Shown piece after piece: positions 12,128-64,000 of a stretch of 64,000 nt of DNA. The stretch comes from Lolium rigidum (lineage: Eukaryota; Streptophyta; Magnoliopsida; Poales; Poaceae), in NCBI RefSeq assembly GCF_022539505.1, contig NC_061512.1:248450510-248514509 (forward strand). Reading direction: 5' to 3'. Within the stretch, counting starts at the first letter, position 1. Each line of letters starts with the position of its first letter. Below the pieces are notes generated by a model that was given only the letters and a program-made list of their open reading frames with translations, was not told the DNA's origin and made no database searches. The position numbers and the translations under genes are program-made.

Positions 12128-12144
12128 GGATGTTGAGAGGACAA

Positions 12145-38523: not shown

Positions 38524-38970
38524 CCCTGGAGAATTGTCTTACAGTATGTTTTAGGCAAACATTAATGCATGTGTGGCGCCGATGGGAGCGGCGCCACACA
38601 TCCTGCCACGTTAGAGTCGAGCACACATCAGCATCGACCGCACCACGTCGGATGGGCGAGTGACGCCGTTCGCACGGACGCCACACAATGAGGTGTGGCG
38701 TCGATGGGAGAGGCGGCACACAAAAAGGTTAGATGGGTGAAATAGTTTCAGCCAAGCTTTTGCAAAAGGATTATTTTTGTCAAAATCGCCTCCCGGCGCG
38801 GTCCAGCGTATCAAAGTCAATCCGAGCCAGATCCACGCGGCACGTGAGAAGTGACACCACACTCTGTCAGTCGTACAGCCCCACTCCCCGGCCGCCGCCA
38901 CCGGTCTCGTCCGTCGCAGATCCCATAACAATCAGCAAGCCGCCGCCGGCCCGCCACCGCTGAGGTCCAC

Positions 38971-39981: not shown

Positions 39982-40159
39982 GCGAGCCACTGAGTTTAGC
40001 TCCGCGGGGAACTGGTGATGGCTTCTTTTGTTTCTGTTCTGAACTGAAACTTCAGGGGCTCCATTTCGTGTACTCTTGTTTAGTTGATTTGGTTTTCATG
40101 AAGCAAATCTGTTTGGGCACCTTTGTGTTCCCATTTGTAGGTGGTAACTGGTGAGCACC

Positions 40160-40165
40160 AATAAA
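40160..40165 (+). terminator. Polyadenylation signal of the aldolase-family gene
   Basis: AATAAA lies 179 bases after the stop codon in AT-rich sequence. Confidence 0.55.
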
Positions 40166-40553
40166 GAGTTGGATTTTACTGAAATGCTGCTGCATCCTTT
40201 TCTTTCATTTTATTTTGCACATTCAGAAAGATAGAAATTTGTATGAGCCAAACACAAGAAATTACTCATGGTAAGAGAAAAGCAATGGTAAGTTTTACTA
40301 AAGGATTGTTGATGACTTGTCTTTGTGGGGTCAGCGCAAGCTATATAGCCAGAGTCCAGATTGTCTATCTCAGCACTTGCTCAACCTCAACCACTGGTTC
40401 AGATATGCTGGCACATCCCATCCAGAACCATTTAGGTCCTTTGGACACTTCCACATCCAAAAATATCTCCTTCCAGTAACAGGATGCAGCCTTAGCAGTT
40501 AGGGGCTGAGCTCTCTCCTGGTTCTCTCCCAAGTTTTTGTTCTTCTTTATCTC

Positions 40554-43500: not shown

Positions 43501-43680
43501 TAGCAGCATACCCGATGACGAAGTTTAACAGAATTCAATGGTTTCTTTGGCTCTGGCAGGTCTCTCATAGCAGCATACCTGCTGGTCCTAGACGGTTACA
43601 AGAATGTGTTCCATCTGGAGGGAGGACTGTACCAATGGTTCAAGGAAGACCTGCCAGCTGAAGCAGAGGAAGAAAACTGA
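40554..43680 (+). CDS. Rhodanese-like domain protein, chloroplast (STR10-like)
   Basis: Six exons: 40554-40743, 40841-40887, 41184-41276, 41662-41800, 41889-41991 and 43560-43680, all GT-AG and in phase, give 230 residues. The first ~55 residues are a transit-peptide-like Ser/Arg/His mix. The rhodanese fold covers about 80-225: [29 protein letters not shown], a hydrophobic insert ([14 protein letters not shown], about 132-146), then [10 protein letters not shown] with Cys172 in the active-site position, and HLEGGLYQW near the end. The loop lacks the Arg of classical CxxxxR sulfurtransferases, so sulfur transfer is uncertain. A second ATG at 40563 is an alternative start. Intron 5 is 1.57 kb and repetitive. 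Confidence 0.93.
42395..42500 (+). mobile_element. Possible tRNA-derived SINE fragment in intron 5 of the rhodanese gene
   Basis: TGGGCCCAGTGG (42405-42416) and AGTTCAAGTCC (42449-42459) resemble RNA polymerase III A and B boxes at a suitable spacing. No clear target duplication is seen. Confidence 0.35.
42880..43415. repeat. Diverged tandem duplication in intron 5 of the rhodanese gene
   Basis: 42900-43195 and about 43196-43415 share blocks in the same order: CCATACTGCACAT, CATGATG(A/T)GTTA, ATTTTCAGGT-like, AACCATCAGTGTT or AACCAGCAGTGTT, ATGCAAAATCATG and GCCATGCAGCTTTCATT. The unit is about 220-300 bp. Confidence 0.75.
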
Positions 43681-44072
43681 GCAGGGAAGGACCTCTCTGT
43701 TATTAGTTGCTACAACATTGTTGTTCATAGATGGAGTTGCAGTGAGTTGTAATGATGCTTTCCACGGATCAATTATGACTAGGTTTTTCCCCTTCTATTT
43801 CGCGATGAAAATGAAGTGCAAGGTGTAATATGTAGACCGAACTATACTGGTTTTGTAGGGAAAATGAGCTTCCCCAATTCAATGGCAGATCACACTGTCA
43901 CGGACGAAGAATTCCACCATTTCTTCTCGCACGCGTGTATACATATGCACACCAATCCAAGGTGTGATGTCTGTAACTTCTTTGCATTGAACAACGATTA
44001 ATCTTTACAATTAGCTGCAGTGTCTCGCAACACCATCAGGACGAACACAAGAAACCAACGGCTAGTCGTCGG
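43681..44072. other. Short gap between convergent rhodanese and Rab genes
   Basis: It holds the two 3'UTRs facing each other. No other feature is seen. Confidence 0.6.
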
Positions 44073-47000
44073 TCACGAGCAGGCGCACTGCGAGGAGGGG
44101 CTCTTCTTCATGGCGCTGGTCTCCATGATAGGGTCGTTCAAATCCACCGTGGTTCCCTTCAGCGACAGCACCACGCCCTCACCACCTCCGTCGCCGCCGT
44201 GGCGCTCCCGCCGCGCCTCGTCGAGCTGGAGCGCACGGCGGGAGACGACGGCGAAGACCTCCTCGAGGAGCGCCATGAAGGCGCGCTCCACGTTGTCTCC
44301 CGTCAGCGCTGACGCCTCCGAGAAGAAGAGCCCCTGCTCCTCCGCCAGCTGCGCGGCCTCGTCGGTGGTCACCTCGCGCGGGCGGTGCGCCGGCGCCAGG
44401 TCGGCCTTGTTGCCGACGAGGGAGACCACGGTGGAGCCGTCGGCGTGGGCGCGGAGCTCCTCCACCCACCGGGGCACGTGGTCGAACGTCGACCGCCGCG
44501 TCACGTCGTACACCACCATGGCGCCCAGCGCGCCGCGGTAGTAGGCGCTCGTCACCGCCCGGTACCTGCTCCCCACACGCGCGCACGGTTATATCAGTCA
44601 AAAACTTCTTTATGTGGAGAAATTCAGTTGAACATTTCATGTTTCATCTTATCAATGTGCTCAGATTTGTCATGTCAAAGAAGTGCTCAAATTTATTTGT
44701 GAAAAAATAAATCCTCTGGTTGGAACATAGCATGAATGGTATGAATAGAGTACACTGTCGCACTCGGACCCTGAGATTTCGTGCATTCAGTTTTCGTCCT
44801 AATTAAACCTCTCAGGCCTGTAGTAGATATTTTATGAGAGTTAGTGGAGATAATCCTCACGGGGATTATGTAAGGGGTGTGTCTAACGCAGTCGATTGAG
44901 GCTTAACTTATATCTCAGTCGAATTTATCAACATGTTTCGATGCGGGTCTAAACAAAGTATAAACAGCAGCGAACACAAATTTTCAAGCAGAAATAAAAT
45001 CTAACGATGAAGCACGTGACTGAGACATAAGATACATCTCAGCTAGCTGAAACTTAGTAATTCCGTTATGTAAAACTACTACCTTCACCCAATACCCTCA
45101 AATTCACCAGGTAGGGGTTGTGTATTCACTGTCGGACCGTCACCGCCATCAAAGGAGGGGCCGGTTTGGTTTGACCGGGCTAAATTGAGCTATTGGCCTA
45201 ATTAGTTCTGAGAATTTAATGCTTTAATGAATATTATGGGTCAAAATGCCTCACCGACAAAAATATAACATTTGCAACATAAATTTAACCCTTCACAATA
45301 GACAACTAAAATTATTGCAGTTGTGTGCCGGTGTGTGCGTAACAAACATCACACACACACTTGTAGCGTGTTGAAATACATAGATAACACAAAAATATAT
45401 TTTCATTGTTTAGTTATTTAGGTCAAACTTAGTAAGTTTAACTTTTGAATTTTTTATATATTTTGGAACTGAGTTAGAGTTGTTTCATAAGATTAAGCTT
45501 TGTTTTAGCCAAATTTGAAGTTATTGAACCAAAAGTTGACTTGGGGTCAAGGTCATGGTCTAAAGTAGTCTTTGACCATGCATATTACTCCTAAAAGTAA
45601 CAAATTCTACAATAAAACACCAGTTTAAAAAAGTATAGTTAGAATAGTTAGGCAAGAATGGTACTCCCTCCGTTCTAAAAAAGGATGTCACAAATTTGTC
45701 AAAATATGAATAGGTACATCCAAATTTAGATAAATCTACGACATTCTTTTTGTGACAGAGGGAGTATTATATTTTTCATAGATAACAGTTTTATATATGT
45801 ATTTATCTATTTTAACTTAAATATTCATGCAAAAAGTAACAATCAAGGCTGTGTAATAAAACATATGTTAAAAAACACCTATTTTAAAGCAGAAAATAAC
45901 ATTTAGCATGACGCTTCTATGAACATGGATACATTTTTTCTCATTCTCAAACTTGGCAAACACAAAATAGTTTTGGAAATTTATGAAAACTTCAAGCACT
46001 CGGAATTGGATGGAAAACTACCCTCGCAAGTTTCATAAATATAATATCACCATCTTTTACAGATGTGAAAAAAACATAGTTTTTGCGTAATTATTACCGT
46101 TCCCTCTATTTCGAAAAGGATATCGCACATTTATCTAAATTTGGATGTATTTATACACTAAATCAAACATGGTCATACATTGTTGGTTGAAAATAACAGT
46201 GGCAAGTTTCTACCAGGGTACAAACTTGTGTGAATGTTATCGAAAATTTTCAAACCTTACGTATATGACTTTAGCTAAATTTCGAAAAAATGAGAACAAA
46301 TGTACCCCTGTTCTAAAAATACGCTATAAACTATATACATAGGAACATCTAAACACACGTCAATCATGTAAAACCTACTATTCATTTAGTCTAAAATTCT
46401 CTACGTACTAACAAACAGGTGTCATTCTGGACACAAATTGTGCACGTATGACCATTCCACTAGGCTAAAGATTTTGCGAGCCTCTTCCTAGAAAGGAGGA
46501 AAAGGCAGATTTTTCCTTTCCCGGGATCACTTTCAGAGGACGGCGTGCTCTAGTGGACCGCAGAATCGTCCTTAGCAGCAGCAGAATCGACATGTGGCTG
46601 TCACATTTGAATGCGGGCGTAGCTTTCGCCTTGCTCCATGAAAGTTGGCTACCACTCAGCAACCCTCATCTTATCACCTTCCTCTTGCGTGCTGATCCGA
46701 TTAGGGATCATCGGCTTAAATACAATGGATGGTGAGGTGGACCGGCACCATGGATTGCCTGATCCCGAAGCAAGAGCTCCAAAATGTAATCGTACTTGGC
46801 GCTATGGTACCAATCCAATCATGTGGCGGAGAAACGCGGCTAGATACTACAGGATAGATGTACGCAACTAACTAAGCAAACTCTTTGTCCTTTGTGGCAC
46901 AAGAAACTCCATGTTGCAATCAGTCTTCGAAACTGTCGACCTATTGTTTGCTTGTTTGCATCGGCTTAGTGCTGAAACCGAATGTGACACATATGATTCT

Positions 47001-47501
47001 GAAGTAATGTATGCACTAATTAAGTAGGCAAGCATTCATCTTCAGTCATGTGATCAATGGTCGTATCTTTGACGCGGCAAAGCTCAACCAGTTCTCTGAG
47101 AACCTCGATGAAACCGTAGAAGGAAAGCGAACGACTAATATGTCTGAATATAGCCAATCGCAAAGCAGTGCGCGCGCCGGCGTGGTCGACGGGCATGCCC
47201 GGCCGGAGATGGGAAGGGAGCTAATGAAGGTGAAGGCTGCGTACCTCTCCTGGCCGGCGGTGTCCCAGATTTGGGCCTTGACGCGCTTGCGGTGGAGGGT
47301 GAGGGTTCGTGTCTGGAACTCGACGCCGATGGTGGACTTGGAGTCGAGGAAGAACTCGTCCTTGGCGAACCGCCCCAGCAGCTGCGTCTTGCCCACCGCC
47401 GAGTCGCCCACCACCACCACCTTGAACACGTAGTCGATCTCCCCCTCCTTCTCGCCTTCCCACCCCGCCGCCGCCTCCTCCTCCTTCCCCCGGGACACCA
47501 T
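44073..47501 (-). CDS. Rab GTPase, RABA4-like (Rab11 family)
   Basis: Two exons, 47501-47245 and 44565-44073, with a 2,679-bp intron, joined in phase to 249 residues. Nucleotide-binding motifs are complete: GDSAVGKT (32-39), switch I Thr57 in STIGVEF, WDTAGQE (79-85), NKAD (138-141) and EASAL (169-173). YYRGALGAM and [12 protein letters not shown] are typical of plant RABA4, which acts in trans-Golgi and tip-directed vesicle traffic. The C-terminus is CACS: two cysteines in CxC spacing plus one residue, rather than the CC seen in most RABA proteins; geranylgeranylation should still be possible. The intron contains two MITE sequences and a dispersed repeat. Confidence 0.93.
45664..45764. mobile_element. 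Stowaway MITE (101 bp)
   Basis: CTCCCTCCGTTCTAAAAAAG and CTTTTTGTGACAGAGGGAG ends are flanked by TA (45662-45663, 45765-45766). It lies in the Rab gene intron. Confidence 0.93.
46099..46160. mobile_element. Half of a Stowaway-type MITE
   Basis: GTTCCCTCTATTTCGAAAAG, followed by ATCTAAATTTGGATGTAT, matches one arm of the element seen at 18717; the other arm is absent. Confidence 0.6.
46580..46847. repeat. Dispersed repeat, copy 1
   Basis: About 268 bp from AGCAGAATCGACATG to CGGCTAGATAC. It matches 57141-57664 in order and orientation. It has no coding potential or terminal repeats that I can see, and lies in the Rab intron. Confidence 0.8.
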
Positions 47502-48328
47502 AGCTTGGGCCGAAGCCTTGATCGCTCTGCTCCTGGAGAGCTCCTGTCTGCCTTGATCACCTCAGCTCGATCGACCGCCCTTCTTCTTGTCTGTGTTTTC
47601 TTGATGAAGTTTTCGCCTCCAAATCTTAGGTAGCTAGGAGCTAGGATGTGGTGTGGCATGCAAGAGCGGGGCAGGGCATACAAGGCATGGCTCTATGGCG
47701 GCAACTTGGCGTGTCACCGATGCTTTTGAGGTTTTACTTTGTGCCTGCCGTCCCGGCAGCATACCAGCCTTTGTGTGACGGTGGGGCGTCTGTGCGTGTC
47801 CTGCTTTGCTCTGGAGGGAAGGGCTGCTGCTGCACAAAGGAGCCTTTGGTGTGTGCGTGGCCTTGTTTCTTTTCTTTGCGTCTTCTGCTTTAGACGTGCC
47901 TCCCTTTTCTCTGTGCGTGTTGCCTCTAATTGTTGCTTTTCTTGCAGTGCTCGAAAGCCAGGGGTAGCCGTGGTTTTGCTTGGAGCGGGCGTTCCTTCAC
48001 ATCTCCGTGTCCTGTGTCCACGGCAACATTGACATTCGCTAACTCCATCTTTATCATCTCCTAACGATTTCTTTTTTTCAAACAAAAATTTACTGTCTGA
48101 ATGGTTTCAGTCTGTGTGGGAGAAAACATGTTTGCAAAAACATGTTCAGATTTAGTCTACCATAACATCGAAACCAACAAAATGCTTGATTTATCATCTT
48201 TTTGTACTCCCTCCGGTCGGATTTAATCAACGCGGAGGGAGGCTCCCGTATGCATGTGTCAGGCAGTTAGCTGCGTCGATTAATTGCGACCAGAGGAGTA
48301 TTGATTTTCCAGTGGTGTGTCTCCTATT
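47502..48328. other. Upstream region of the Rab gene
   Basis: It includes the 5'UTR/promoter of the minus-strand Rab gene and a small MITE (48207-48298). No other gene is seen. Confidence 0.55.
48207..48298. mobile_element. Stowaway-like MITE (92 bp)
   Basis: The left end CTCCCTCCGGTCGGATTTAA is complementary to the right end AATTGCGACCAGAGGAG, with TA on both sides (48205-48206, 48299-48300). The inner arms also pair (ATTTAATCAACGC and GCGTCGATTAATT). Confidence 0.88.
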
Positions 48329-50070
48329 TTTGAACTTGATAACATTACCAATGGCATGAAAAGAGATCATATGTTCAAGAGTCTAAGAAACTCAAGCTAT
48401 ACTTTGTGTAAAGCTTGTTAACTAAAAAAATCACTCTTCCTTTATGAATTCTTCTTCTTGGTTCTTAAATAAATTTTGCTCTAGACGGAAGAAACCCTTT
48501 GTTCCCGGGCTTCCCATTTTAGCTATGGCTGCACCGGTGGCGGCCCTAGCACATGTCCCTCCTTTCTCCTTGACCCACAACCTAGGAATGACCCCTTCCA
48601 TGATGGCCTTGTGGCAACCTTAGCACCTACCCCTCTTCTCTGCTTGATGCACATATGAGAGTTACCTTATCCCAAGAAGCTCATGGTGGAGCGACCATAC
48701 TGATCCTTGCCTCGCGGTCGCATGCAAGCATACACGCACTGTTGCTCAATGTTGGGTCGCTGAAGTCGGTGGTGACTCTCAAGGTGAAGGAAAGGGGTGA
48801 GCGGCCATGTGTCTGATCCGACCGACGGAGGGCCCTAGACTTCAGCATGCCAGCGTATGCACACCGGATGTAGGTCGGCCAAAGACTGACATTTCTTTTC
48901 CTATGTTCGGGAAGTGTCTTACTTGTGCGGTCTACCATTGGCAATGTTGGAGTCCGATGTAGATGGGGTAGGGGCGTACCGATTCCTTCCCAACATTAGA
49001 CACATTGATGTTCACTTCTCTTCACCACCGATTCAATCATGTGTGTTTCGCGGCGGTACTTCTTAGGCCGCACTGGTGTGCGGTGTTGTGCTGCATCAAG
49101 ATAGCTCACACATAGGACTGCATGGTGGATGTTGTAGGTCGGTTTGCACGATGCGTAGTGACAACAACCAGATCCACGTTGTGTAATTGGCGCACCCTTT
49201 TGACAACTAGGGAAGTGGTCTAATGTGGGAAGACATACGTCCGCTAGTGCCACTTAGGCGTGGCATGGAGAACTTGATGGTCCAACTATCAGAAGAGCCA
49301 AAGTTGCTTCATTACCTTGTTGAAGGCGCTATCTCCTTGCCAACGTGCTGACCTTCAATGATTTGGTTTCAGCCACCATAATTAAAAAAACTTGTTCTAG
49401 CCGTTTAATCTGGCTGTGGCGAGACGGGGTGCGAGGGTGTGATTCCCTTCTTGAAGGCGTTGCCGCAGAATAAGTTGGCTTATTCATAAATTTATATCTT
49501 GTAAATGGTTTTGCCGTAAGTGTCTATGATTTGTACTATTTTTGTTCATGACTCTGACTTTGTTGCCTTTAATGAAGAACCCAGGGTTTTCAATCTCCTT
49601 TTCCGAAAAAGGATACTATATAACTTTTAGTAATGAGGGTAGTGAATAACTACTTGAAATATCACATGTGTGGTCAATCGATTGGCTGATATTTGTCTTA
49701 ATTGTATTTGTTGTGCGAGGTTGTTCTAAGTGGTATCAAGTTGTTGATGGGCGTGGAAACATGTAAAATTAAGTTTCGTAACTTTTTTTTTTAAATTTGA
49801 ATTTGGCTACATTACCAATAACATAAAAAGAGATGATGGGTTCAAGAATCTAAAATTTTGAAACTTTGTTTTCTGTTAAGCTTGTTGATAGAAAAGAAAA
49901 ATTGTTCTTTAGTTGCAAATTGTTGTTCTTGGGTCTCAAATTAATGTTTGTTGCTTTAATGATGGAGTCAGTGAGTTTGGGATGTGTAATGTTTCACTAT
50001 GGAACCAGTGAATCACAAACTGAAAATCATATGTTTGGAAAATCGGTTGATATTTGTCAAGCTGTATTTG
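48329..50070. repeat. Old duplication, one copy split by an insertion
   Basis: 48329-48480 plus 49618-49720 align in order with 49795-50070: shared blocks include CATTACCAATGGCATGAAAA or CATTACCAATAACATAAAAA, TTCAAGAGTCTAA or TTCAAGAATCTAA, and TTGATATTTGTC-like. The interruption 48481-49617 is absent from the second copy. Confidence 0.65.
48481..49617 (+). mobile_element. Retroposon-like insertion
   Basis: It is defined by its absence from the paired copy. The right end resembles a polyadenylated retroposon 3' end (TTTGTACTATTTTTGTTCATG, ending with a short A-run after TTTCCG). No intact reading frame is present. Confidence 0.45.
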
Positions 50071-51790
50071 TTTTTTTTTTTAGATAAAAGGCTTCGAGAG
50101 CCCAACTTTAAATTAATAAAACCCTCAAATGGCTAGGATTCAAAGGTGCAGAATACACAACCTTTAACAAGGTTAAAAGAGAAGGCAAAGCCCTAGAGGA
50201 ACTACAAACTCCGGGAGCCGCAGGCAGGGCCGAACAGCAGCAACAAGTCCTGGGTCGCCCCTACGAACCAGTACGGACTTGGTCGATGGGCAGGAATTAA
50301 CATGCGCCTCAAGCCTGCTCGACCTCTGTGGTGTAGGAAGCTGCAGCTAGGCACCCGGAACCGAACTCCACTCCACCCGGCAACGCTACCAAAGAACCAA
50401 CTTGCCAAGCCACGAAGAATTGCCGCAGACGGAAGGAGACATGGGCAACCAATGAAGTGGAGGAATCCCAACGTCAAAGGGATGAAGAACCGGCCCAATG
50501 ACCCCCACGTCGTGCTGCTGCCGGAGGAGGGACCTTTCCCTCCCCACCCAGGCTCGAGGGTGTCGTCCCATCGGCAATCGAAGAGGTTAGGCACCAAAAG
50601 ACTTGACCTTGCTGAAGAACGCCTCCTGACTTCGTCTTCGCCCCACTCGAAATGCACCACCCTCGTTGTCACCACACCTTCAGCCGCTCTGTCCCCTCAT
50701 CCCAAAGCGGCGCCTCCAAGGAGAAGAACGACGCAGGAGCGCCGTCGTAGCTTGGCCGCAGCCTAGGCTTTCACCTGGGATACAAGAGAAGAGAGTGGGA
50801 TAGTTCCCTCACCAGCCCTTCAACAAGGAGAACAACAGGACGTCATCATTGCTAGTGTGACTAGTAATAAAATATCCAAGGGCCTCGGAAACCACCCAGC
50901 CGCCTCGCGCGGACGCCGCTCGGGCAGTCCGAGGACCATCTGAGGCAGATCTGGCGCAGAGAAGCAGAACAATGGACATGACACGAAAGTAGACGTAACA
51001 AGCTATGCCGTGACAAGACTTCCACCAACTCCTCTTCGTCCTCACGGCCAAGAAGCCTAGCAAACACTATCAAGCGCCACCCACCTTCCGGTCGATTCCG
51101 CCACCCACCGTCCAGGGCCGCCGCCCCGGCATCCCAGCTCTGAGCACTAAAGAAATGAAAGGAAATGGGAGGTACCACCATCACACGAACCACCTACAAC
51201 GCCCCGGGGGCATTGGGCCTGAAGGGAGAGGGCTCCTCCCACAGATAAATCTGGAGCCCCCATGGCTACCAGCGCCGCCAGATCTGGGGCGGAAGGCGAT
51301 GGGCTCGAGAGGGCCCGAGCCTCCTAGCCCGAGATCTTGAGATGGCCAACCATGGCCGCACTGCCCATCACCCCACACGGACACCCCCCCCCCCCACACG
51401 AGCGGGAACACCGCCGGCCAAGCTTGACACCATGGACGCGCAGAAGAAGCCCACGCACGAGATGCTCCAGTCCACTCGCAATGAACAGAGCTGTCGAGCT
51501 CGCGCCACCCGCTGCAGCGCCCTCCGAGGGACGCCGTCGCCGCATCGCGCACGCCGATGACCATGAAGCCACCACACCGCCGTGCCCAACGCCAGCACCA
51601 TGCCCCGGCTGTTGCGGCCCGCACCGCCGCCACCACGCGAGGTGAGAAGAGGCCCCGCCGCGGCCAGCGCTGCCCGGGCTTCGCCCGACGACGCCCTCTG
51701 GTAGCAGCGAGGAGGAAGGGAGGTGATGGTAGGCGGCGGCTAGGGTTCCTCCTAGGTCCCTCGTGGGAGCGACCACGAGAGGGTACCGTT
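50071..51790 (-). mobile_element. LINE-like retroposon with poly(A) tail, minus strand
   Basis: A T-run at 50071-50081 followed by AGATAAAAGGCTTCGAGAGC is the reverse of a grass LINE 3' end (TTTATT-type terminus plus A tail). The body becomes very GC-rich towards 51.3-51.79 kb, like a 5' region, with broken frames only. The 5' boundary is uncertain; it meets a plus-strand LINE ORF2 near 51790. Confidence 0.5.
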
Positions 51791-53680
51791 TCCAAATCTC
51801 TTGCCGACGGTTTATCAGCATTAGTGAGAAAAGAAGTGGAAATTAATGGCATTACCCCCCTCAAGGTGTTCTGTGGAGCTCATGGTATTTCACATCTCCT
51901 TTTTCGGATGACACTTTGTTATTTTTTAAGGCTAACAGTGATCAAGCTTTGAGAGTTAAACACGCTACCCTTCGAAATGTTCTCTACTCTTCGGTGGTTC
52001 TTGCCTGCAGGACATACAAGCTCACATACACCAAATTCTTGATGTTGAGAATCAAGATTTTGAGGCCAAATATTTGGGTCTGCCCACACCGGATGGTACA
52101 ATGCATAAAGGGAAATTTGAAAGTATGCAATCGCTTCTAAGTAAAAGGTTGATTGAGTGGGGTGACGGTATTCTTGCACAGAGTGCTCACGAGATTCTTA
52201 TTAAGGCCATTGCCCAGGCTTTACCGACATATGTTATGGGTGTATTCAAGCTGCCGATGTCAGTATGCGACGATCTTACTCATCTGATCCGAAACTATTG
52301 GTGGGGTGCTGATCGTGGTAAGCGGAAAGCACACTGGCTAAATTGGAGTAAACTGAATCGTTCTAAGCAACAAGGAGGCCTTGGCTTTCGTGATATGAGA
52401 CTCTTCAATCAGGCCCTACTCGCTCGCCAGGCATGGCGCCTGATTGCTTTCCCTGAAAGTTTATGTGCGCGAGTCCTGAAGGCAAGATATTATCATAAGG
52501 GGTGACCTTACTGATACTGTGTTGTAACCCTTCTTCTGCCTGGACGGCTCTTGCACATGGTTTGAAACTACTGAAGCAAGGTATAATGACGTGTTGGAAA
52601 TGGCCAAATATTCGAGTGTGGAGGGATAATTGGATCCCTCGCCAAATTTATTGTAAAGTGTTAACACCAAGAAGGAACAGCCGCATTCGTAGTGTCTCTG
52701 AACTAATTGATGCTCATGGAAATTGGGATACATCTAAGGTTTGTCACACTTTCTCTCCCATAGATGCAGATCAGATTCTGAAAATTAAACCATCACAACG
52801 AGGTGATGGGGATGTGCTGGCTTGGCAAATGGAGAAATCGGGCATTTTTTCGGTTCGCAACGCGTATAAGCTAACCTTGCAAAATACGCCGAAGCAGTGT
52901 TCTTTTCCTTCTTTGAGCGTTTTGTTGGACGGCGCGAGCCCATGTTAGCCTAAAATTTGGAAATTATCCGTTCCTCCGAAAGTGAATTTTTTTGCATGGA
53001 AGGCAGCTTCAAATGCCCTTGCTACGCTATGCCGAGGTATGAGAGTTACTATGAGAGTTACGGGCATTTGTAATATTTGTGGTAAGGAGAAAGAGGATAC
53101 AACTCATGCACTATTTTCTTGTTTGCATGCTCGATAGCTATGGGAATCAATGAGAGATGTTTGGCTTCTCCCCTCTGAGGCAGACATGCAAGTCAATCCC
53201 CTTGCATGGTTCTCCACGGTTATTATCCAGGCATCTGCGCAAATGGTAGACAACATTCTTTTGGTGGCTTGGCGTGCATGTCATGCTCGCAATGAAGTCA
53301 CCCATGAGAAGCCTCTGCCCATCCATTGAATGCTCGAAAAGGTTCTCATGTAGCTATCTAAAATCTGTAAGAAATTCTAGAAAACTTTCGCCTGAAGCTA
53401 TTGTTAAAGGAAAGTGTGTTACACTTGTAGTTGCTGAACTGAGATCTTGTAGCAGACTGAAGAAACAATTGAATAAACCTCATGACTGGGTCAAGTTAAC
53501 AATTGATGGTTCTTACAAGGAGGATAACGGTACAACATGAGCGGGAATGGTTCTCCGAGACGATATGAGACATGTTACTTTCTCATCTTGTCGCAGCCTA
53601 GTGCTATGCGGGGATTTATTGGAAGCTAAAGTGTGTGCTTGCCTAGAAGGGATCAAACTGGCACTCCAATATAGCTAGTT
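51791..53680 (+). pseudogene. LINE ORF2 remnant: RT end, zf-RVT and RNase H
   Basis: It starts inside RT (LADGLSALVRKEVEINGI, HGISHLLF with the following ADD box lost by a frameshift) and continues with KYLGLPTPDG, VFKLPMSVCDDL, NYWWGADRGKRKAHWLNWSK and GGLGFRDMRLFNQALLARQAWRL. Then come the zinc-binding zf-RVT region (PPKVNFFAWKA, ICNICGKEKEDTTHALFSC) and an RNase H start (KLTIDGSYKEDNGTT). There are many stops and shifts (52503, 52946, 53139 and others). The first half of ORF2 is absent. Confidence 0.85.
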
Positions 53681-53689
53681 GCCCATAGT

Positions 53690-54460
53690 CATCGACACAT
53701 ATTGTGCCCAGATAGTGCCGGCGGTCCAAAATCGACATCCAGACCGGTCTTCCCTACTGCACTTAGTTGTTCTTCATCGGGAGCACCCGTCTATCAGTTG
53801 TTCTTCATCGGGAGCAACCGTTTCGCCTGCGCCAAGCCAATCTGGAAGTCGAAGGCACCTATGAAGTGCAGATTTTTTATGTGGCTTGTTGTTCACAGAC
53901 GATGCCTTACAGCAGATAACCTCCAGCGCCGAGGGTGGCCGCACACCCCTTGTGTGCTCTGTGCCAAATCGAAGATGAGGACTGCACGCACCTCTTTGTG
54001 CATTGTCGATTTACACAACAGATTTGGCACAATTTCAGGACATGGACGAAGGCCGACTTCCCTATTCCCGGAGAAGCTTTCAGGAATACCGAGGAGTGGT
54101 GGCTTGCAGCTAGAGGAAGAGCGCCCAAAAACTTGCGGCGTGACTTTGACACGGTCGTGATCCTTGTCCACTAGCGAGTTTGGATGGAGCGTAACGCAAG
54201 GATTTTCAGGCAAGAATTCTGCACGGTCGACAGGGTTCTGGAGCTCATCATCGAGGAGATCCATTCCTGGCGTGCTGCAGGCTGCACCGCCTCATTTTAG
54301 TTCAGTGTGTAGCCTGTTAGCTCTGGGTTTTTTGTCTTTTGTTAGCTAGCTGCTGTTTAGCTAGTTGCTGTCGCACTTCTGTGCGTTTCTCTATCCCCTT
54401 GTACACCTTGTACAAACAATTCTTTTCTTCTTAATAAAAGTTCGGCCATTGGCCCTTCGA
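53690..54460 (+). pseudogene. Second LINE fragment: zf-RVT domain and 3' end
   Basis: The plus strand encodes APMKCRFFMWLVVHRRCLTA, then PLCALCQIEDEDCTHLFVHC, the zf-RVT Cys/His motif, WHNFRTWTKADFPIPG, and after one stop VWMERNARIFR and IEEIHSWRAAGC. A TTTAGCTAG-rich 3'UTR with AATAAA (54433-54438) follows. It differs from the preceding LINE and is probably a separate element. Confidence 0.8.
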
Positions 54461-56055
54461 TCAAGAGGCAGGCGATCGACAACGCGGGCGAGGCCTTCAC
54501 CAGGGAGACGCGCGCACGGGCCGGTGACGCTCAGACACGCTCAAAGGTGAGGCCTTCGCACAGGCCGATGGCGCACGGACGCGCTCCGAGCTGGGCGTGG
54601 AGCTGAACTCTGAAAAATGGTTTCAGAGTAGATGTTAGTTTAGTCATTTCGTGCTGTACTTTCAGAGAAGATGGATGTTGGTTTCAGCGTAGAGTTTTAG
54701 CCATTCAGACTAATCTCATGAAGGATTTGATGTCAATAATAAACCTGTTTCAGTTAGATCTCCTCAACAAAACTCATCATCTGTAAACTTGGTGGTTTAT
54801 ACTGAACTTGGATTTGATGTCAATGTCATGCAATCTACAAAGGTTGATCTAAGGCGTAAAACCAGCAAACGATTCTAGCTCTAGTAATACAGCACAAGTC
54901 ATCGTTTTCTCTTGTCACTTGCTTGGATATGGGGATTCTTGTTGTTGTCTTCACTGGCTTGGAGGCGATTGCCAAGCTCAGTTCCTTCGACATACACACA
55001 AGATGTCAGTCTAATGGCAATCAAGTACTACCACACAACAGACATTCTTTTTAGTCAGTATCTGTCACCAAACTAATTTTTGAAATCATGGTCGCAGCCT
55101 GATTATATGAGTGGTGTAGAGACAAAAGTTTGCATGGCACTATGATGAGAATTAGCACAAATACTTAGCATATTGCCCTATTGTATCATCTGTAGCCTGG
55201 GACAAACAGCAATGTCAAGATGTACCTGCCATTTTGATTCAAGACGTACCTGCCAAGTTAGATATATCCTACTGTAAAACTAAGTAACTTCCACACAACA
55301 ATGACAAGTAACTTCCACACAGGGGAAATTGTGCACATATTCTGCAAACAACATTTTTTACCACTGTGGTAGACCATGGAAGACAATGCTTGAAACATCA
55401 GGACATAGTTAAGTTTGTGCTAAATAAGAGAGAAACACAGTTTAGATACTATCTGAAGATCAACAAGCAAAATCAAAAGGGCCAGTAGATATGATAAGCT
55501 ACCAAGCAAGGTCATCCTCCATCTTCAATAACTGAACACCATTCCATCTAGCAAGTCGATTCAGAAATACACAAAAACTTCAGACTACAATCCACAAGCC
55601 TGGGTATTGTGGTAGATGATTCGATAGTGCAAAAAAAATCATACATTTGCAGTGTTGAAACTCATACATTAGCAGCTTTGGGATAAATTTACAGAGGATA
55701 TGGCCATATAATTCTGAAACTCATACCAATTTACATCTTTTCTGAAATTTACAGACCTCGCAAGTTCTGATTCCTCAACACTACAACTCGACTGACTACA
55801 AAATCCGATCGATCTCGAGCATTTCAGTGACAGCCAAAAGGGGCCTGTGAGCAAGGATTCGTGAACAAAGGGGGTTATCATCAATTATCCCAAATGCTCT
55901 GGATGAATGAAAAACAACATCAAGATAAGAAGACACTAAAATGGAGGGAACAATATACACCTACCTCAGCAAAACAGAAGGGCCTTGCAACATTTAGTTT
56001 CTCCTCGGCATCAAGAAAGCAATTGAGTATTACTCACGGCAAAATTGATGAACCA
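54461..56055. other. Intergenic region, no gene recognised
   Basis: AT-rich with scattered stops in all frames. No splice-supported exon chain or terminal repeat was found. Confidence 0.5.
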
Positions 56056-56076
56056 ACACGAAAATACAAAGGAGAT

Positions 56077-56129
56077 TTTTTTTTTTCGAAATGGGGAAGA
56101 AAACCCCGGCTTCTGCATCATGATGATGC
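56077..56129 (-). mobile_element. Minimal 5'-truncated retroposon with 21-bp target duplication
   Basis: A 53-bp insert that starts with a T-run (a minus-strand poly(A) tail) and contains CCCCGGCTTCTGCATCATG is flanked by perfect 21-bp direct repeats at 56056-56076 and 56130-56150 (each starting ACACGAAAATACAAAGG). This is the mark of target-primed reverse transcription. Confidence 0.88.
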
Positions 56130-56354
56130 ACACGAAAATACAAAGGAGATGAGATCATATCACCCAGAAGTGTTAAGCATCAAACGAAAATACTTGCATT
56201 TTTTTTATTTTGTTGAATGGCAACACTGTAATCACCACAAATTAAAATATGCAATTTGGAACGTACGAAAATCCGCAGGTATTCAAAGCTGCTGTGTGTA
56301 ATTGTGAGTAGTCATAAATAATTATATAGAAATATTACTGAATGATGTCTTGTA

Positions 56355-56598
56355 CTCCCTCCATACTGGATTAATGGACAATCACGCATTTTGAGAAACA
56401 AGTTTGACTATAAATTTAGTCAACAAAATATGAAATATATGCCACAAAAATTATACCGTTGGATTCATATTCAAAAAATGTATCCAATAATATAATTGTT
56501 GTGATATATATTTTATATTTTGTTGACCAAATTAGTAGTCAAACTTGTTTCTCGCGGTGCATATTTGCTCAGCAATCCGGTATGGAGGTACTAGGGAG
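56355..56598. mobile_element. Stowaway-like MITE (244 bp)
   Basis: Ends CTCCCTCCATACTGGATTAA and GCAATCCGGTATGGAGGTAC...GGGAG are inverted copies, flanked by TA (56353-56354, 56599-56600). The right end has a 6-bp insertion. The inner arms pair (ACAAGTTTGACTA and TAGTCAAACTTGT). Confidence 0.9.
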
Positions 56599-57140
56599 TA
56601 AGTAACCTGCATGGCTGCATGTAAACCCAGATCCACACGAAAAAAGTTTCATGACAAACAAGTAACCTGCAAAAATAAAAACCAAACAAGTGTTAACTTA
56701 ATGCTACAACAATGGCATACTTGAAAATATGTAATATATGTTTCCGTCATCATCATTTATTTATCGAGATTCGTGCTTACCATGGTAAATGAAATATTCT
56801 TTTCTCTCTCCTCTTTTTATCCGAATCTCGAAGCCAAACGGATGGTGACGGAAACGTCCACACCATGCATGTAAGTACAAACGTATTTCCCCACATATTA
56901 TAGCATGCAACTTTTTTTTTTGACATGATAGCTTCTGAGCTGCAAGCCTGCAACAGACATGTTCCTGTAAGAGAATTACGCTCCAGCCAAATTTCTCTTG
57001 CGTGACTATGACCAGCGCATTTAGCTCATTCCTGTGCTGGGAGGCAACTGCACCACCAGAGAGCGTTGGCCACAAATCTGCCATCAATGTTGTGGCATTG
57101 GGTGTGAAACGCCTGCTGGCCGCTGGAGATGCCCTGCGGG

Positions 57141-57664
57141 AGCAGAATCGACATGAGGCTGCCACGTTTCAATGCAGGCGTAGCTTTCGCCCTGCGTCTT
57201 GAAAGTTGCCTATCATTCAGAACTGAGCAAACCTCATATTATCACCTTCTTTCTTGTGTGCTGATCCGATTAGGGGTCATCGACATAAATACAAGGGAGG
57301 ATGAGGTGGACCGGCACCAGGGGTCAACGACTTAAATGCAAGTGAAGTATGAGATGGACCGGCACCATCGATTGCCTAGTCCGGAAGCAAGGGCACCGGA
57401 ATGCAGTCGCACTGAGATCTGAGTGTTAGCTTAGTGGCAAGACTTGAGAGTACGCAGCCAATCTCCTGGGTTCGAATTCAAGAGGGACCGAATTAAACAG
57501 GGTGTTATCTAGCGCATATGACTTCGCTGCTTGAGAGGTTTTATAATCTAACAACGTATAGCGAAGGGAGGAAATCTTTCCCCGTTGGTCAACGTTGTAG
57601 AATGTAGTCGTACTTGGTGGAATGTACCAATCCAATCATGTGGAGGAGAAACAAGGCCAAATAC
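57141..57664. repeat. Dispersed repeat, copy 2, interrupted by a SINE
   Basis: It matches 46580-46847 from AGCAGAATCGACATG onward. Differences: a 47-bp tandem duplication (57273-57319 and 57320-57368) and a SINE with its target duplication (57399-57613). Confidence 0.82.
57413..57599 (+). mobile_element. tRNA-derived SINE (187 bp)
   Basis: The A box TAGCTTAGTGGC (57427-57438) and B box GGGTTCGAATTC (57468-57479) are 29 nt apart. It is flanked by 14-bp direct repeats GAATGCAGTCGCAC (57399-57412) and GAATGTAGTCGTAC (57600-57613), differing at two bases. The empty site is visible in the repeat copy at 46.8 kb. Confidence 0.85.
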
Positions 57665-60600
57665 GAGAGACAACAAACGAAGACCAAGCTCGTGTGGTCC
57701 TCTATTTTTAAAAATTCTATGATCATAGTTTAAAATTTCAAAAAATAACAAGAAAAATCTTTAATATAGCCAATGATATATGCACTGAATGTCTAAAATT
57801 TTAATGTGAAACTCTTTATATTCTAGGCTACATGAAAAATGATTTTCACACCATTTTAGGATACATCATTGGTTACATTTGATACGTTTTTCATTTAAAA
57901 AATTTAAAATATAATTTTGAATTAAGAACTAAATGACTACACGTAGCTCGGTCTCACTTTGTCCATTCTCAACCGGATACATGATAAATGTATGTACACA
58001 CAGTCTATATTTGCGGCTTAGTGAGAGTGAATATTTCACGACTAGTTGCACCCACATCTTATTATCGGTTTGTGCACTTTCAAGTTTTCGAAAAACATGT
58101 AATAAAGCAGGGACAAAGGTTACGTTGAATCTTCTGCATGTATAAAATATCGTTCCAAAATATGACCATATTTGACTTGTGGAAAAAAAAGACCAAAATA
58201 AATAGTATTCCATCACTATTTACACATCATTTGTCTTTTTTTGTGCAAGGCACACATTATGATATCTTTGTGTGATACTTCGCAGAAGCATATTATACAA
58301 CATATTATATGTCCTAGTCTTCCAGATTTATTTCACATTTTTTAAAACTTAAAAATATGACATCCTACGACAGGGTACGCGTGCAACTAGTTGCAACACT
58401 AGTAAGTTTGCACGTGCACGCACGTTAACTAATACAAATTAATAAAATCATAAAAAATATAAACTAAAATATAAAACACTCTATCAAATTTATATTAATT
58501 TGTAAATTATTTCAAAGATGAAATCTTGCTTGAGGAAAGGATGCAACTAAGGTATGGTCATGGTGGCGAGGCTTGATTCATGAGCAGAGATCATGCATAT
58601 CTCGGAGATGGCATCGACAAGATGTATACAATCAAATATTCAGAATGAGAAATATCTTTTTCTTCCAAGCAGACCATGTCATTGTCAGCTCACTCAGTTT
58701 GACTGAAAAGCATTTCTAAGAATGTTAAACAATGGCAATTTCATAAAGTGTAGCCGTGTTAAAACTTGCCCTCGGCAAGTGTATACCTTGTCTCTTGAGA
58801 TGTACCCAGGAGGATGACAAAATGGGACACTCAACAAAACCTGCACACCCGGAGAAGGGAAATGCAAAGCATTAAAGACAGAAGGAGATATTTCATATCC
58901 ATCTGACCATCTAACCACAATGTTAGAAGTTAGAACCATAGAGCAGGGCAAACAAGTTAATGTTTTACTAAAGACAAAAGTTTATACCAACAATTTCAAT
59001 GTAAAATAGCAATATCTTAATATGTAAAATTTATGCTAGAACTGTTGCATAAGCAGTTTGTATTGAGAAGAAAATTATAATGCTCAAACTGCACAGAGGA
59101 TTTGGAATTTAATCCGTTATGATGCACTACTGGAGGGTGTGACTGTAATTGGAAGAGGAAAATGCAAGACCTAGCATAGCAACATTCTTCATATGCTTAT
59201 ATATCTTCTGTGAAATATGAATAGCTCGTGTTCGGATGCTAGAAGGAACTATCAAGCATAATGTTGCCAAAATCCCGTTAATAAGTGGTGCTAAGAAAAC
59301 CATTCGGAAACTTTTACCAATGAATTAAAATGATTTAAATTAAGTACAGCGCCACATCTACTCCTGGATCTGGCAATAAGGAAAAAAGACTCATTTAATA
59401 CTCACGCATGTATGGAGAACTTAATAAGTTAACATTTTGTAGCACAAGAAGATGTAAGGAAAAAACTATAGTAAGGCAATACTATACCTCCAGCATTAGC
59501 AGAAACAAAGATGGAGAAAAAATATGTGCACTTTTATCTCAACTGAGACAGCTCCGCTAGAGCAAGAGTGTATCTAGGAGGGTTTCAACTAAAATTCACA
59601 TGCGGAGTAGCGAAGTAAATCAAATTTGTACTATAATTTAAGGAAAACCAAGCCGGTGACAGTGAAAGCTTTTTTTTTTCATAGTTGCTAGATATACTTA
59701 AAGACAAGCGTGCATACACAATCTACAGAACTGCACAAGAAGTGTTTGAGCTGTCGCCCAAAAGCGTATATTAACTCTTCTAGAGCAGTATACCAATGAG
59801 GCATGTTATATCTATCTAACACATACGCACATTTATGGAGTTTCAGCATCACCTCGTGTAAAACATAAGCTATGCTTAGGATATTCAGAAAAAAGTAACA
59901 GTGCCATCTTGTTCTTAGAGAACCTGAAAGAGATATATTTTCAAAGCAATCTACATTAGCACAAATATGAAAATAGAAAAGACATAGGTATTAGCAAATT
60001 CTAGGTACAACAGAATCCAATGCCTAGTTGTAGCATATTATGAAAGAACTATATCTCATTAGTCGAAATCACAGGTAAACTCCGGTATTTCCAGGGATAT
60101 TAAAATGTACACAACATCATCAAGTATTTTTTTAGATTAATCGCACTGACATAATTTCTTGAACCTAGTTTGCAGAAATATTTTGACTGTTGGTACGGCC
60201 CGCAAAAGTTATTTGCGAAGATGTGCGGCACACGGTAGTAGTTTAGGAAGATATCATAGGAGAAACATATGTTTGTCAAATGATAAAGCTCACATATCAA
60301 TGCCGGAGATAATAGGCTTTTTTTTGCTAGTTATGATCTTCTCAATCACGGTCTAGCTATATGAGTATGTATAAGGCACCAAGGTTGCCATGTGTTACCC
60401 CTCATTGCTATTATAAAGATCTCACCTTACCAGGATATATCAATCAAACGGAACCCCATTGATTTTCTGTTGTTGTGATTTTAGTTGTAAGCCATATTGT
60501 TGGTCCTTGAGTTCTTTCCTTGCACTGACTAAGATGCCTAGAATGTAGTCACAGAGGAGCAGGACAGGCCCATCGGGATGTCATGGACACGAAATCCTTC

Positions 60601-61500
60601 ACCATGAAGTCAGCTCATGGAACCCTCTTGATGTGGCCGCCCGCATATAGCAGCACCAAATGCTTCTTCACCATTAGGTGTACCACCAAACCGAGTAGGA
60701 CGCCATCTGCAGAACTGCAAAAGAAACGTATGAGTCAGGGAGGAATCCAACAATCTCTTCCTCGTGAGCAGGCAATTTGTTTGAAAGCAAAAGGAGAGCA
60801 GAAATCTAGTTCCCTAGCACAGTTCTATCTGTAATAAGTTAAACGATTGGAGAAGGGTTTCATCTGGGATATGAAGTGTCGGTAGATAGAGGCGAAGATA
60901 TGTAGTGCGGCGGCGCCATAGCCGACGCGGGCCGGAAAAGCCAGGCGGCGGTACAGGCCAGGAAACAGCCGAGGAGTCATGTGCGAGCGAGCTAGCGGTC
61001 ATAGAACGCGACCTGCTCAGGACTGGCGTGACTACGACGAATCCCCACGGCAGCAACCTCGTCGTGGCACGCTCCAACAGCTGCAGCGGACACCCCTCCT
61101 TCCGCAGCATCCCTGCCTTCTTGACCGCCCTACCGACGTCGGCAAGCCATCGTCTTATGGAAGATCGGAAGAGGAGCACCACACCAAGGTGTGATTTGAT
61201 TCAGCGAAATTTGATCCTGGAAAGGAAGATAAATCTGGAAAAGAGAGGATTTATCGGCATTAACCTTCACTTAAATGATTCGGTGGGATTTGATCCGCGG
61301 AATCAGGCCATGCAGGCAGGGATTCGGAGCTTCGGAGGCGGCGTCAGCGCGATTTGAGGAGGGGGATGGGGAGAACAAATGATTTTCGTTCGTTAGATAA
61401 AAGACTATGTAGTAGAGATGTATCTTTCCCGGCTTACCTCTGCAAACCTTGTCCACGAAAATCATGAGGATGCCGCTCTCCGTCTGACTGAGCCTAGATT
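57665..61500. other. Mostly AT-rich region; possible unrecognised minus-strand exons
   Basis: No gene can be named. On the minus strand an exon-like piece near 58850-58797 has a GTGTGCAG acceptor, 18 codons starting VLLSVPFCHPPGYISRDK, and a GTATAC donor. Another acceptor (TTTTGCAG) lies near 60717, and an Arg-rich frame starts at 61182. They could belong to one gene or be chance. Confidence 0.35.
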
Positions 61501-61531
61501 CTCATCTCAAAAAAAAAAAAAGCCTAGATTC

Positions 61532-61539
61532 TATAAAAT
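61532..61539 (+). promoter_or_regulatory. TATA box upstream of the GH5 gene
   Basis: TATAAAAT lies 93 bases before the ATG at 61632, after an A-run. The spacing is normal for a plant core promoter with a short 5'UTR. Confidence 0.5.
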
Positions 61540-61631
61540 GGCCAGCCCGGTAAACACCTCTACTGCGAACAACAACACGCTCACCGCGATTCATCCTCTA
61601 CTCTAGAGCAGTAGAGCGCTCAGCAGACGAG

Positions 61632-62441
61632 ATGCATCGTTCTATCCTTATTATCCCAGCGCTCCTGCTCCTGGCCGGTGCTGTCTCGGCCTGGCTTCCC
61701 CAGGAGCGCAACTTGGCTGCTTTCAACCAGACGGCTCGCTTCGAACAGCTTGGCAAGCGCTTCGAGCCGTCTCTGGCCAAGGCCAAGGGCATCAACAAAA
61801 TCAGGGGCGTTAATTTGGGCGGTATGTCTCGTTAAATTTATAAAAAATCCTGTGAAACCTTCTCGTCTCTGGCAAGAACTACTAACACACAATGGTTGGA
61901 ATTCTCAGGCTGGCTCATCTGTGAGCCGTGGATGATGCGTGATGAGTGGGACAACGTCATGGGTTGCAAGGGGGCTGCCTCGGAGTTCGACTGCATGCTG
62001 AAAAATTACGGTGGAAGCAAACGAGACGCAGGCAACGACAAGTTCGAGACTCACTGGAAGACTTGGATCAATCCCGCCAGCATCCAATCAGCCCACGATG
62101 TTGGCCTGAACACGATCCGTATTCCCATCGGGTACTGGTCTAACGTAGACATTGCCGACAAGGCCAGCGAGCCTTTTGCCGACGGCAACAGGATGCTCCC
62201 CTACCTGGACGCCGTCGTCCAAAAGGCCGCTGACCTTGGCATGTATGTCATCATCGATCTTCATGGGGCTCCACGCGGTCAGCAAGAGGACGTCTTTACC
62301 GGCCAGAACAACAAGCCGGCTGGTTTCTTCAACGACTACGACTTTGACCGCGCCCAGAAGTGGATGTCGTGGATGACCAAGCGCATCCACACAAACCTTG
62401 CCTACGCCACCAAGCTCACTCTATCCAATTATTCTAGATAG
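61632..62441 (+). CDS. Fungal-type GH5 beta-1,6-glucanase-like gene, 3'-truncated
   Basis: Two exons, 61632-61821 and 61909-62441, join in phase to 240 residues. Residues 1-20 (MHRSILIIPALLLLAGAVSA) are a secretion signal. RGVNLGGWLICEPWM, GLNTIRIPIGYW and YVIIDLHGAP are glycoside hydrolase family 5 motifs in the form seen in filamentous-fungal endo-beta-1,6-glucanases, enzymes acting on fungal wall beta-1,6-glucan; plants normally lack this class. The 87-bp intron has GTATGT, TACTAAC and CAG. The frame leaves homology after NLAYAT and stops nine codons later in a palindrome; fungal relatives are about 400 residues or more, and both catalytic glutamates would lie in the missing part. It is therefore probably inactive as a glucanase. 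Horizontal transfer from an endophyte lineage is the best explanation. Confidence 0.88.
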
Positions 62442-62447
62442 AGTGAG
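62415..62447. repeat. 11-bp perfect hairpin at the truncation point
   Basis: CTCACTCTATC (62415-62425) and GATAGAGTGAG (62437-62447) pair around an 11-nt loop. The hairpin supplies the last codons and stop of the truncated GH5 frame. Confidence 0.85.
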
Positions 62448-62512
62448 GCACGCAATTACTAGGATCGGCGGGCTCCCGAGAGGAGCCTGTCCAGGCGCAA
62501 TAAAAAAAGAAG

Positions 62513-62934
62513 AAAGTCCAATTCTCATCCTTGAACTTTTGGGAAAGTTCACTTTCAGTCCCAAAATTTATTTCTAGTCTAGAATGAACCTTGAACTCTC
62601 ATAATAATTCACTTTTCATCCCTTTGCAGTTGAGTTGAGCAAATTAGTGGCGCGGAAAAAAAATAGGGAACCAACAAAATTGGTTTAGAACTAGACCAAG
62701 CCCAAACTAGCTGAGATGTTAAACCAAACGTCACAATGGAAAAAACAACGAAACCCTTGGGTCCTGAACCAGTCTCTCGCTTGATTTCTCTCCCTTCTAA
62801 TTCACGTGAAGGGTTGCGCCACAAAGGACTAAAAGTGAATGATTCTGAGAGTTCAAGGTTCATTTTGAACCAGACGGAAGTTCTAGGACCAAAAGTGAAC
62901 TTTCAATAGAATTCAAGGACCAAAAGTGGACTTT
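62513..62934. mobile_element. MITE of ~422 bp, superfamily unassigned
   Basis: The left end AAAGTCCAATTCTCATCCTT and the reverse complement of the right end (AAAGTCCACTTTTGGTCCTT) form an inverted repeat that continues, with gaps, for about 50 bp (both include GAAAGTTCACTTT). It is non-coding. No convincing target duplication is visible. Confidence 0.7.
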
Positions 62935-62938
62935 GTTC

Positions 62939-64000
62939 ATGAAAATATTATCTCTGAACTATCAGGGTTTGGGGAACAACCCGACAGTTCCACCGCTTTT
63001 GGATCTTCGAACGCGTAGTGATCCCCGAGGTGGGTTTTTTGTCGGAGACCCACCTAGATGTATATCCGGCAGATTGTTTGCGAAGGCGTTTGAATATAGT
63101 CTTCAAAATTGTTAATCCGAGTGATGGAAGGACTGGTGGAGTTATGCTCTTGTGGAAAAAGGAAATAATTATCCAACAATTGTTCTCAGCTCCTAAATAT
63201 ATTGATGTAAAAGTGATTGAAGCTCCGGATAAAGTTTGGATACTTACATGTATGTATGGAGAACCGACGTGGGAAGACAAATATAAAATCATGGGACAAA
63301 ATTAGGGAGCTTCATTGTAACTCAAATCTCCCGTGGGATAGCATCGGTGACTTTAATGAAATTCTCTTCTCACATGAAAAAGAGGGGCAACCCCAAGGAT
63401 ATATGCAAGCTTTTTGAGATGCACTGGTGGACTGTGGTTTGGAAGACTTGGGGTTTTCAGGTGATGTTTTTACATCGAAGCGAGGTCGTATTAGACAGAG
63501 GCTCGATCATGCAATCGCTAATGGGCAATGGATGACTATGCACCCGGGGGCGGTTCTCCAGCACCTGGGGTATATCAAATCGGACCATCGCCCGATTTTG
63601 CTTGATACTGACTACCAAGCGGGGGTAGGACAACCGAAACTTGGGCCCCGCAGATTTGAGGCGAAGTGGCTGCACGAAAAGGGTTTTAGACAATTGGTCG
63701 AGAATGCCTAGGAAGCGTCAGGGGCTCCCGCGGCAGGCGTGCTAGATCTCTCCTGGCTAGGCTGCATGCAGCCATGCACGAGTGGGATAGTACGGTACTG
63801 GAGCAGCCAAAGAAGCGATTGTGTAAAGCTCAAAAAGATCTTGATGATGTCCTTAGTGGTCAGTTGACTGAGGAGAGTGAAAACAAAGCAAAGGAGTTAG
63901 CTAACCTGGTTGAAATTCTACTAGAACAAGAGGAAGTGTATTGGCCGCAAAGGTCCCAGGCTAATTGGATCCAACATTGGGACATAAATACTTCTTTCTT
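62939..64000 (+). pseudogene. LINE ORF2, endonuclease part (continues past window end)
   Basis: The ATG at 62939 starts MKILSLNYQGLGNN, the usual start of a plant L1-type ORF2. The AP-endonuclease-like domain follows: FLSETHLDVYPADCLRR, GGVMLLWKKEI, LTCMYGEPTWEDK, IGDFNEILF, FTSKRGRIRQRLDHA and the catalytic SDHRPI (about 63580-63597). At least three frame changes (near 63030, 63290 and 63400) and a stop at 63709-63711 show decay. RT would lie beyond the window. Confidence 0.85.

Follow-up and report, generated by a model that had tools for sequence, protein, structure and literature searches.

The closest described relatives of the gene analysed here belong to a family of glucanase genes (BGNL) found in grasses. 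Nuclear gene transfers from fungi to grasses are rare, and that of the glucanase was presented as the first one (PMC5567365). According to that report, the LpBGNL gene of Lolium perenne was acquired by transfer, carries one intron at a position conserved with the fungal gene, lies on distal linkage group 5 as supported by BAC and linkage evidence, and is expressed in leaf, root and flower (PMC5567365). The same text also records three haplotypes for each of two species of Dactylis, with a premature stop in two of the D. marina haplotypes. A second member, AsBGNL of Agrostis stolonifera, comes from another grass subtribe, has an intron position reported as conserved, is expressed in seedlings, and, in its authors' reading, may have come from Loliinae by a grass-to-grass transfer (Watanabe et al., 2021, PMC8432771). 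The terms copies, paralog, tandem, duplicat and pseudogene are absent from the main texts of both papers, and the literature searched, which covers few subscription journals or preprints, yielded no account of a multi-copy BGNL array and no paper joining Lolium rigidum, horizontal gene transfer and glucanase.

We analysed a stretch of 64,000 nucleotides of L. rigidum DNA (hereafter the window). Close to its 3' end, the window contains a two-exon gene starting with an ATG at 61632, whose joined exons remain open for 240 codons, with the exons, the 87-bp intron and the stop lying exactly where the initial annotation had put them (Table 1). The whole 240-aa product is 100% identical to 'probable glucan endo-1,6-beta-glucosidase B', a database entry from Lolium rigidum, and matches the Pfam Cellulase/GH5 profile (PF00150) with an E of 2.4e-11, covering profile positions 11-108 of 272 only. 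NCBIfam profiles gave no match for any of the three proteins tested. In the assembly, where the window spans C5:248,450,510-248,514,509, the gene is embedded at 248.5 of 271.4 Mb in the 271-Mb pseudochromosome C5 of a 2.44-Gb genome, about 33-37 kb from reading frames for KIB1-4 beta-propeller proteins, which we take to be a plant family.

The window gene is a member of the published grass BGNL family, whose source was a relative of Epichloe (LpBGNL 2017, AsBGNL 2021), and the fungus-to-grass transfer is therefore not new. What we add to it is an apparently enzyme-dead paralogue, a multi-copy array, and a propeptide-like segment present in the window copy only. Like LpBGNL, the window copy is fungus-derived, resides in a Lolium chromosome and has one intron; LpBGNL is placed on distal linkage group 5, whereas C5 is a contig number that may not correspond to that linkage group. 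Moreover, LpBGNL is described as complete and expressed, whereas the window copy lacks 206 codons and is part of a family of at least seven copies (PMC5567365).

The loss of the 206 codons is apparent from comparison with A3, an intact copy of the same family. The window frame tracks A3 up to AYAT (A3 residue 211, window base 62411), runs through 12 nucleotides of filler, and ends with SNYSR-stop, which aligns to the C-terminal SNYT-stop of A3, from A3 residue 418. In the assembly sequence, 206 codons of A3 are replaced by four in the window copy, and the frame is kept. We also considered a gene ending at 62411 and followed, after a 1.3-kb deletion, by unexplained filler and LINE sequence, and rejected it because, in the alignment of the C-terminus, the original stop region is still present and the deletion is internal. 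The filler forms an 11-nt perfect inverted repeat with the retained 3' end, a length reached by none of 20000 random 12-nt fillers. Snap-back templated end joining is a repair mechanism that leaves such fillers, and the inverted repeat looks like its product.

The in-frame loss leaves a 240-residue fragment without an active site. The deleted part includes A3 Glu220 (in NEP) and Glu342 (in GEWS), which we take to be the two acting glutamates of GH5 enzymes, the acid/base in NEP and the nucleophile in GEW; the window copy retains neither of these glutamates of an active GH5 endo-beta-1,6-glucanase. Counting strands of at least three residues in predicted structures of modest confidence (mean pLDDT 69.6 and 66.5, respectively), we found eight in the Epichloe festucae var. 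lolii protein P0121 and three in the window protein, which would thus have lost five of the eight predicted strands of a complete barrel. The initial annotation, which proposed either the transferred gene or a paralogous copy of it, overlooked the loss of the catalytic C-terminal part: the paralogue alternative is the right one, and the gene is an internally deleted copy and not a working glucanase gene. Judged from its coding sequence, the window copy is an enzyme-dead paralogue, unable to carry out glucanase chemistry, and we regard it as a pseudogene whose frame has stayed open.

It could be argued that the 240-aa product still has a role, perhaps as a decoy or regulator that is secreted and binds glucan but leaves it uncut, given that the in-frame deletion keeps the start, the signal-like N-terminus, the splice sites and the stop, and that the window-A3 comparison (Ks 0.159, Ka 0.023, 209 codons) gives a Ka/Ks of 0.14. 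We regard this as quite improbable: much of that ratio may predate the deletion, only three of the eight barrel strands are predicted to remain, and the chance that a deletion retains the frame is about 1/3. The window branch, moreover, carries about as many replacement as silent changes (6 and 7, making up 13 of the 28 codons that differ from A3, with three assigned to the A3 branch and 12 unplaced), although these are too few to tell constraint from neutrality, and three of the six replacement changes fall in a conversion-like tract discussed below.

Table 1. Location of the window gene, its parts, neighbouring elements and related copies in Lolium rigidum. Positions are those of the window except where Mb or a contig is given.
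Feature	Location	Strand	Remarks
TATAAAA, candidate TATA box	61532..61538	+	~100 bp 5' of ATG; putative promoter element
Exon 1	61632..61821	+	signal-peptide-like N-terminus and propeptide-like segment
60-nt, 20-codon segment (NQTARFEQLGKRFEPSLAKA)	61725..61784	+	limits imprecise by a few nt (short terminal repeat)
Intron, 87 bp	61822..61908	+	GT-AG (GTATGT...TCTCAG)
Exon 2, including stop codon (TAG)	61909..62441	+	N-terminal part of GH5 domain
12-nt filler at deletion junction	62412..62423	+	
Retained C-terminal codons SNYSR and stop	62424..62441	+	aligned to A3 SNYT
11-nt perfect inverted repeat	arms 62415-62425 and 62437-62447	.	joins filler to retained 3' end
5'-truncated LINE	62458..64000	+	runs past the window to about L034:3000; genome copies match 62458-62506
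Foldback (MITE-like) element	62509..62938	.	nested in LINE
Inverted segmental duplicate of C5:243,019,413-243,049,989	38792..62411	.	
Cluster A: A1, A2, A3	242.95-243.02 Mb of C5	-	
Cluster B: window copy (B1), B2, B3	248.51-248.59 Mb of C5	+	
Seventh copy	unplaced contig C486		three pieces, no matched N-terminus

Both the protein search and the phylogeny with Epichloe that the initial annotation had proposed point to a fungal source. Among the best 120 of 892 matches to the window protein, the entries from named organisms are two Lolium rigidum proteins and otherwise fungi, and native plant GH5 proteins, which had been named as the best matches that would speak against a fungal-type gene, are not among them. 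This search was confined to candidates of up to 420 aa, a limit that leaves Epichloe outside. A second search, starting from the Lolium protein P0002 and scoring the 7998 candidates that share most words with it, gave as best non-Lolium match among the best 120 of 356 the beta-1,6-glucanase of Epichloe festucae var. lolii (P0121), with 84% identity over 98%. In sequence, the solved structures that come closest are exo-beta-1,3-glucanases of yeast and fungi, and the beta-1,6 specificity of the family therefore rests on database names and papers.

We built a tree of 24 rows, comprising six Lolium sequences, 15 grouped as fungal (including the metagenome row P0015) and three metagenome proteins (P0006, P0009 and P0012) that we tentatively grouped with grasses. 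The grass rows and Epichloe form a clade with support 99/98, all other fungi remaining outside, and, measured by path, no other non-grass row is as near to the window copy as Epichloe festucae var. lolii, which is hence its closest non-plant relative in this tree. Within this clade, the window copy, A3 and P0006 group together with support 100/99, whereas the grass rows alone are recovered with 77/42. Two alternative topologies, each joining Epichloe to a different Lolium lineage, are both unrejected (p-AU 0.163 and 0.128). The root of the tree is approximate, because the three outgroup rows do not fall on one side of a branch.

P0006, encoded on a 1598-bp metagenome contig, is sister to the window copy (94/73) and 96% identical to it over 67% of the window copy; unlike the latter, this exon 2 product has both catalytic motifs, and its shared derived residues suggest a grass origin. 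The metagenome proteins P0009 and P0012 are 86-89% identical to the Epichloe protein and have no firm place among the grass copies; they possibly represent further grass lineages of the glucanase family.

The finding of a fungal-type gene within a plant assembly could in principle reflect fungal contamination or a chimeric contig. We consider this extremely improbable, as the genome harbours further copies that differ from one another, transposons lie both inside and beside the gene, the same chromosome has a matching duplicate block, the product is fully identical to a Lolium rigidum protein, and the gene of perennial ryegrass is backed by the published BAC and linkage evidence (PMC5567365).

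By searching the gene against its own genome, we obtained 16 matched pieces at E<=0.001, which we interpret as at least seven copies in L. rigidum. Six of them form two three-gene arrays in mirror-image order, separated by 5.5 Mb, and another is an unplaced wreck. Open two-exon frames are present in three copies, A3 (421 aa), A2 (414 aa) and B2 (414 aa), while B3 is frameshifted with a stop after 206 aa, and A1 is broken in exon 2 and has a 5' flank shifted by about 280 bp relative to A3 and A2. The intron lies at the same codon in all six copies that have exon 1, with a length of 87 bp in the window copy, 86 in A3, 235 in A2, 241 in B2, 979 in A1 and 1079 in B3. A TATAAA stretch aligns at the candidate TATA position in the window copy, A3, A2, B2 and B3, and not in A1.

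Compared with the 86-87 bp introns of A3 and the window copy, those of A1/B3 and A2/B2 (235-1079 bp) are long, and their starts resemble the ends of Stowaway-type MITEs. We also observed that A3 (C5:243018780-243020116), in spite of its intact 421-aa frame and an expected high rank, has no separate Lolium entry among the best 120 of 356 proteins, and may be unannotated in databases.

The relationship between the two arrays is one of inverted segmental duplication, which we observe as a co-linear chain of gapped pieces of at least 150 nt with 81-94% identity. The pairs tested across the clusters, window-A3 and A2-B2, agree in silent divergence, A1-B3 being outside the comparison. For A2-B2, we obtained a Ks of 0.1674 and a Ka of 0.0082 over 414 codons; at the codon level, the resulting Ka/Ks of 0.05 shows strong purifying selection on this pair, and A2 and B2 have therefore probably been working. 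Taking 6.5e-9 as the rate for grasses would put the inverted duplication at about 12 My ago, an estimate on which we do not rely.

The mirror-image order of the three copies in each cluster would also be expected if clusters A and B represented the two haplotypes of a single locus, both of them included in a pseudo-haploid assembly, all the more as L. rigidum is an outcrossing species. However, the silent divergence of 0.16-0.17 in both pairs tested is far above allelic level, and deletions and other breaks vary from copy to copy, which makes such a duplicated placement very unlikely.

Divergence between the two lineages that sit side by side in each array, A3/B1 and A1/A2/B2/B3, is larger, with Ks values of 0.29 for A3-A2, 0.34 for A3-B2 and 0.33 for window-A2. 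All of these exceed the 0.196 given between LpBGNL and E. festucae (PMC5567365, Table 2), and, together with the unrejected topologies that place Epichloe inside the grasses, they might indicate that at least two separate transfers from Epichloe-lineage donors founded the two lineages. We find this unlikely. The lineages are adjacent, a 60-nt loss is common to A3 and other copies, and they share a longer signal peptide, a 5' flank with the TATA box (from -65 to the ATG) and a 3' flank directly after the stop. Because the A3 and A2 lineages share these flanks, we favour one integration, followed by duplication, over several transfers.

The published silent distances themselves break the ultrametric rule whatever the number of transfers: 0.196 between L. 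perenne and E. festucae, 0.221 between F. ovina and E. festucae, and 0.333 between L. perenne and F. ovina (PMC5567365, Table 2). The distance between ryegrass and sheep fescue is thus larger than that of either grass to Epichloe, and no single clock gives that. By simple arithmetic, these tabulated values correspond to branches of about 0.15, 0.18 and 0.04, the grass ones being about four times longer than the fungal one, so that in any case the grass side must have changed faster. For another transferred gene, similar rates in grass and fungus are reported (PMC7670438). Given paralogues that differ by a Ks of 0.29-0.34 within a single genome, part of the published between-grass distance may come from paralogues compared as orthologues. 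As the tabulated distances fit no one clock, we dropped Ks both for dating and for counting transfers.

The 60-nt loss concerns a 20-codon propeptide-like segment of exon 1, which is kept in the window copy only and is absent from the five other copies with exon 1 (A1, A2, A3, B2 and B3). Epichloe and other fungal homologues carry it. In particular, P0121 has the segment NQTARFEQLGKRF as the window copy does, although, unlike the window copy, this fungal protein of 429 aa has both catalytic motifs (E235 and E350). The segment includes a dibasic KR, and either KR or RR occupies this site in 102 of the 108 homologues with a readable N-terminus (out of 185 proteins, two from Lolium being set aside and 75 failing the N-terminus filter). 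In fungi, such a dibasic site would be cut by Kex2. As a guess, the loss of the segment in plant copies might be an adaptation to plant secretion.

In the same tract, the window copy has Gln24 and Arg26 as in Epichloe, whereas A3, A2, B2 and B3 have Lys and His. This conflicts with the exon-2 tree, where A3 groups with the window copy at 100/99 and yet lacks the window-type exon 1 tract. The mosaic pattern suggests short-tract gene conversion, in which an A2-type copy was the donor and A3 the recipient, or the window copy received the tract from a copy without the loss. A fairly improbable variant is that the Epichloe gene entered grasses more than once, and that adjacent copies then traded stretches by conversion, one deletion spreading among them while the window copy kept its fungal N-terminus.

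We return to a single integration, and propose the following joint history, to which we give a probability of roughly 85%. A fungal gene would have integrated once and, by duplication, given rise to at least two old lineages that are now neighbours, A3/B1 and A1/A2/B2/B3, the second with a further division into A1/B3 and A2/B2. The array of three genes has an inverted duplicate on C5, at a distance of 5.5 Mb. The window copy lost its 206 codons in frame, probably by error-prone end joining with templated filler, and a LINE inserted just past its stop, the deletion and the insertion being ordered here by inference. The intact copies A3, A2 and B2 most likely encode a secreted enzyme cutting the beta-1,6-glucan of fungal walls, as suggested by their family and by the expression described for its published members (PMC5567365; PMC8432771).

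A multi-copy and partly decayed array implies that the published single-amplicon trees and dates may mix paralogues. The proposed Loliinae-to-Agrostidinae transfer may rest on mixed paralogues as well, and, because it is based on such a single-gene tree, the Agrostis claim needs rechecking with all copies. The array also provides a natural record of the domestication of a foreign gene, in which some copies are under selection and others are broken, introns have very unequal lengths, and the fungal-type dibasic propeptide segment has gone from five of the six exon-1 copies.

The LINE starts near 62458, about 16 bp beyond the stop of the window gene. Its downstream continuation (L034) matches RVT_1 (E 1.1e-17) and zf-RVT (E 1.4e-15), while Pfam gave no match on four short LINE frames inside the window. 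Several genome copies share sequence further upstream, and the element is therefore 5'-truncated; a TTACTAG repeated at both of its ends may be a target-site duplication. The arms of the foldback (62509-62624 and 62823-62938) are 77% complementary. The initial annotation was right to see a LINE and a MITE-like foldback, but not in having them bound the gene on both sides, since both are 3' of it and the foldback is inside the LINE. A candidate Helitron end near 62447-62462 (a hairpin plus CTAG) was ruled out, as genome copies carry LINE sequence there.

Elsewhere in the window, a 6.2-kb piece that shares 93% identity with cluster A carries a reading frame for an HpcH/HpaI aldolase (38929-39978, E 6.4e-49), at the end of the inverted duplicate farthest from the glucanase gene. 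At 22449-28631, repeats of some 1 kb in direct orientation with 88-89% identity, containing KIB1-4 beta-propeller frames on the minus strand, represent a local duplication of what is presumably a plant F-box-type gene. Finally, the minus strand at 9182-12226 carries a frame of a Copia-type retrotransposon, in which gag, integrase and SH3-like domains are present.
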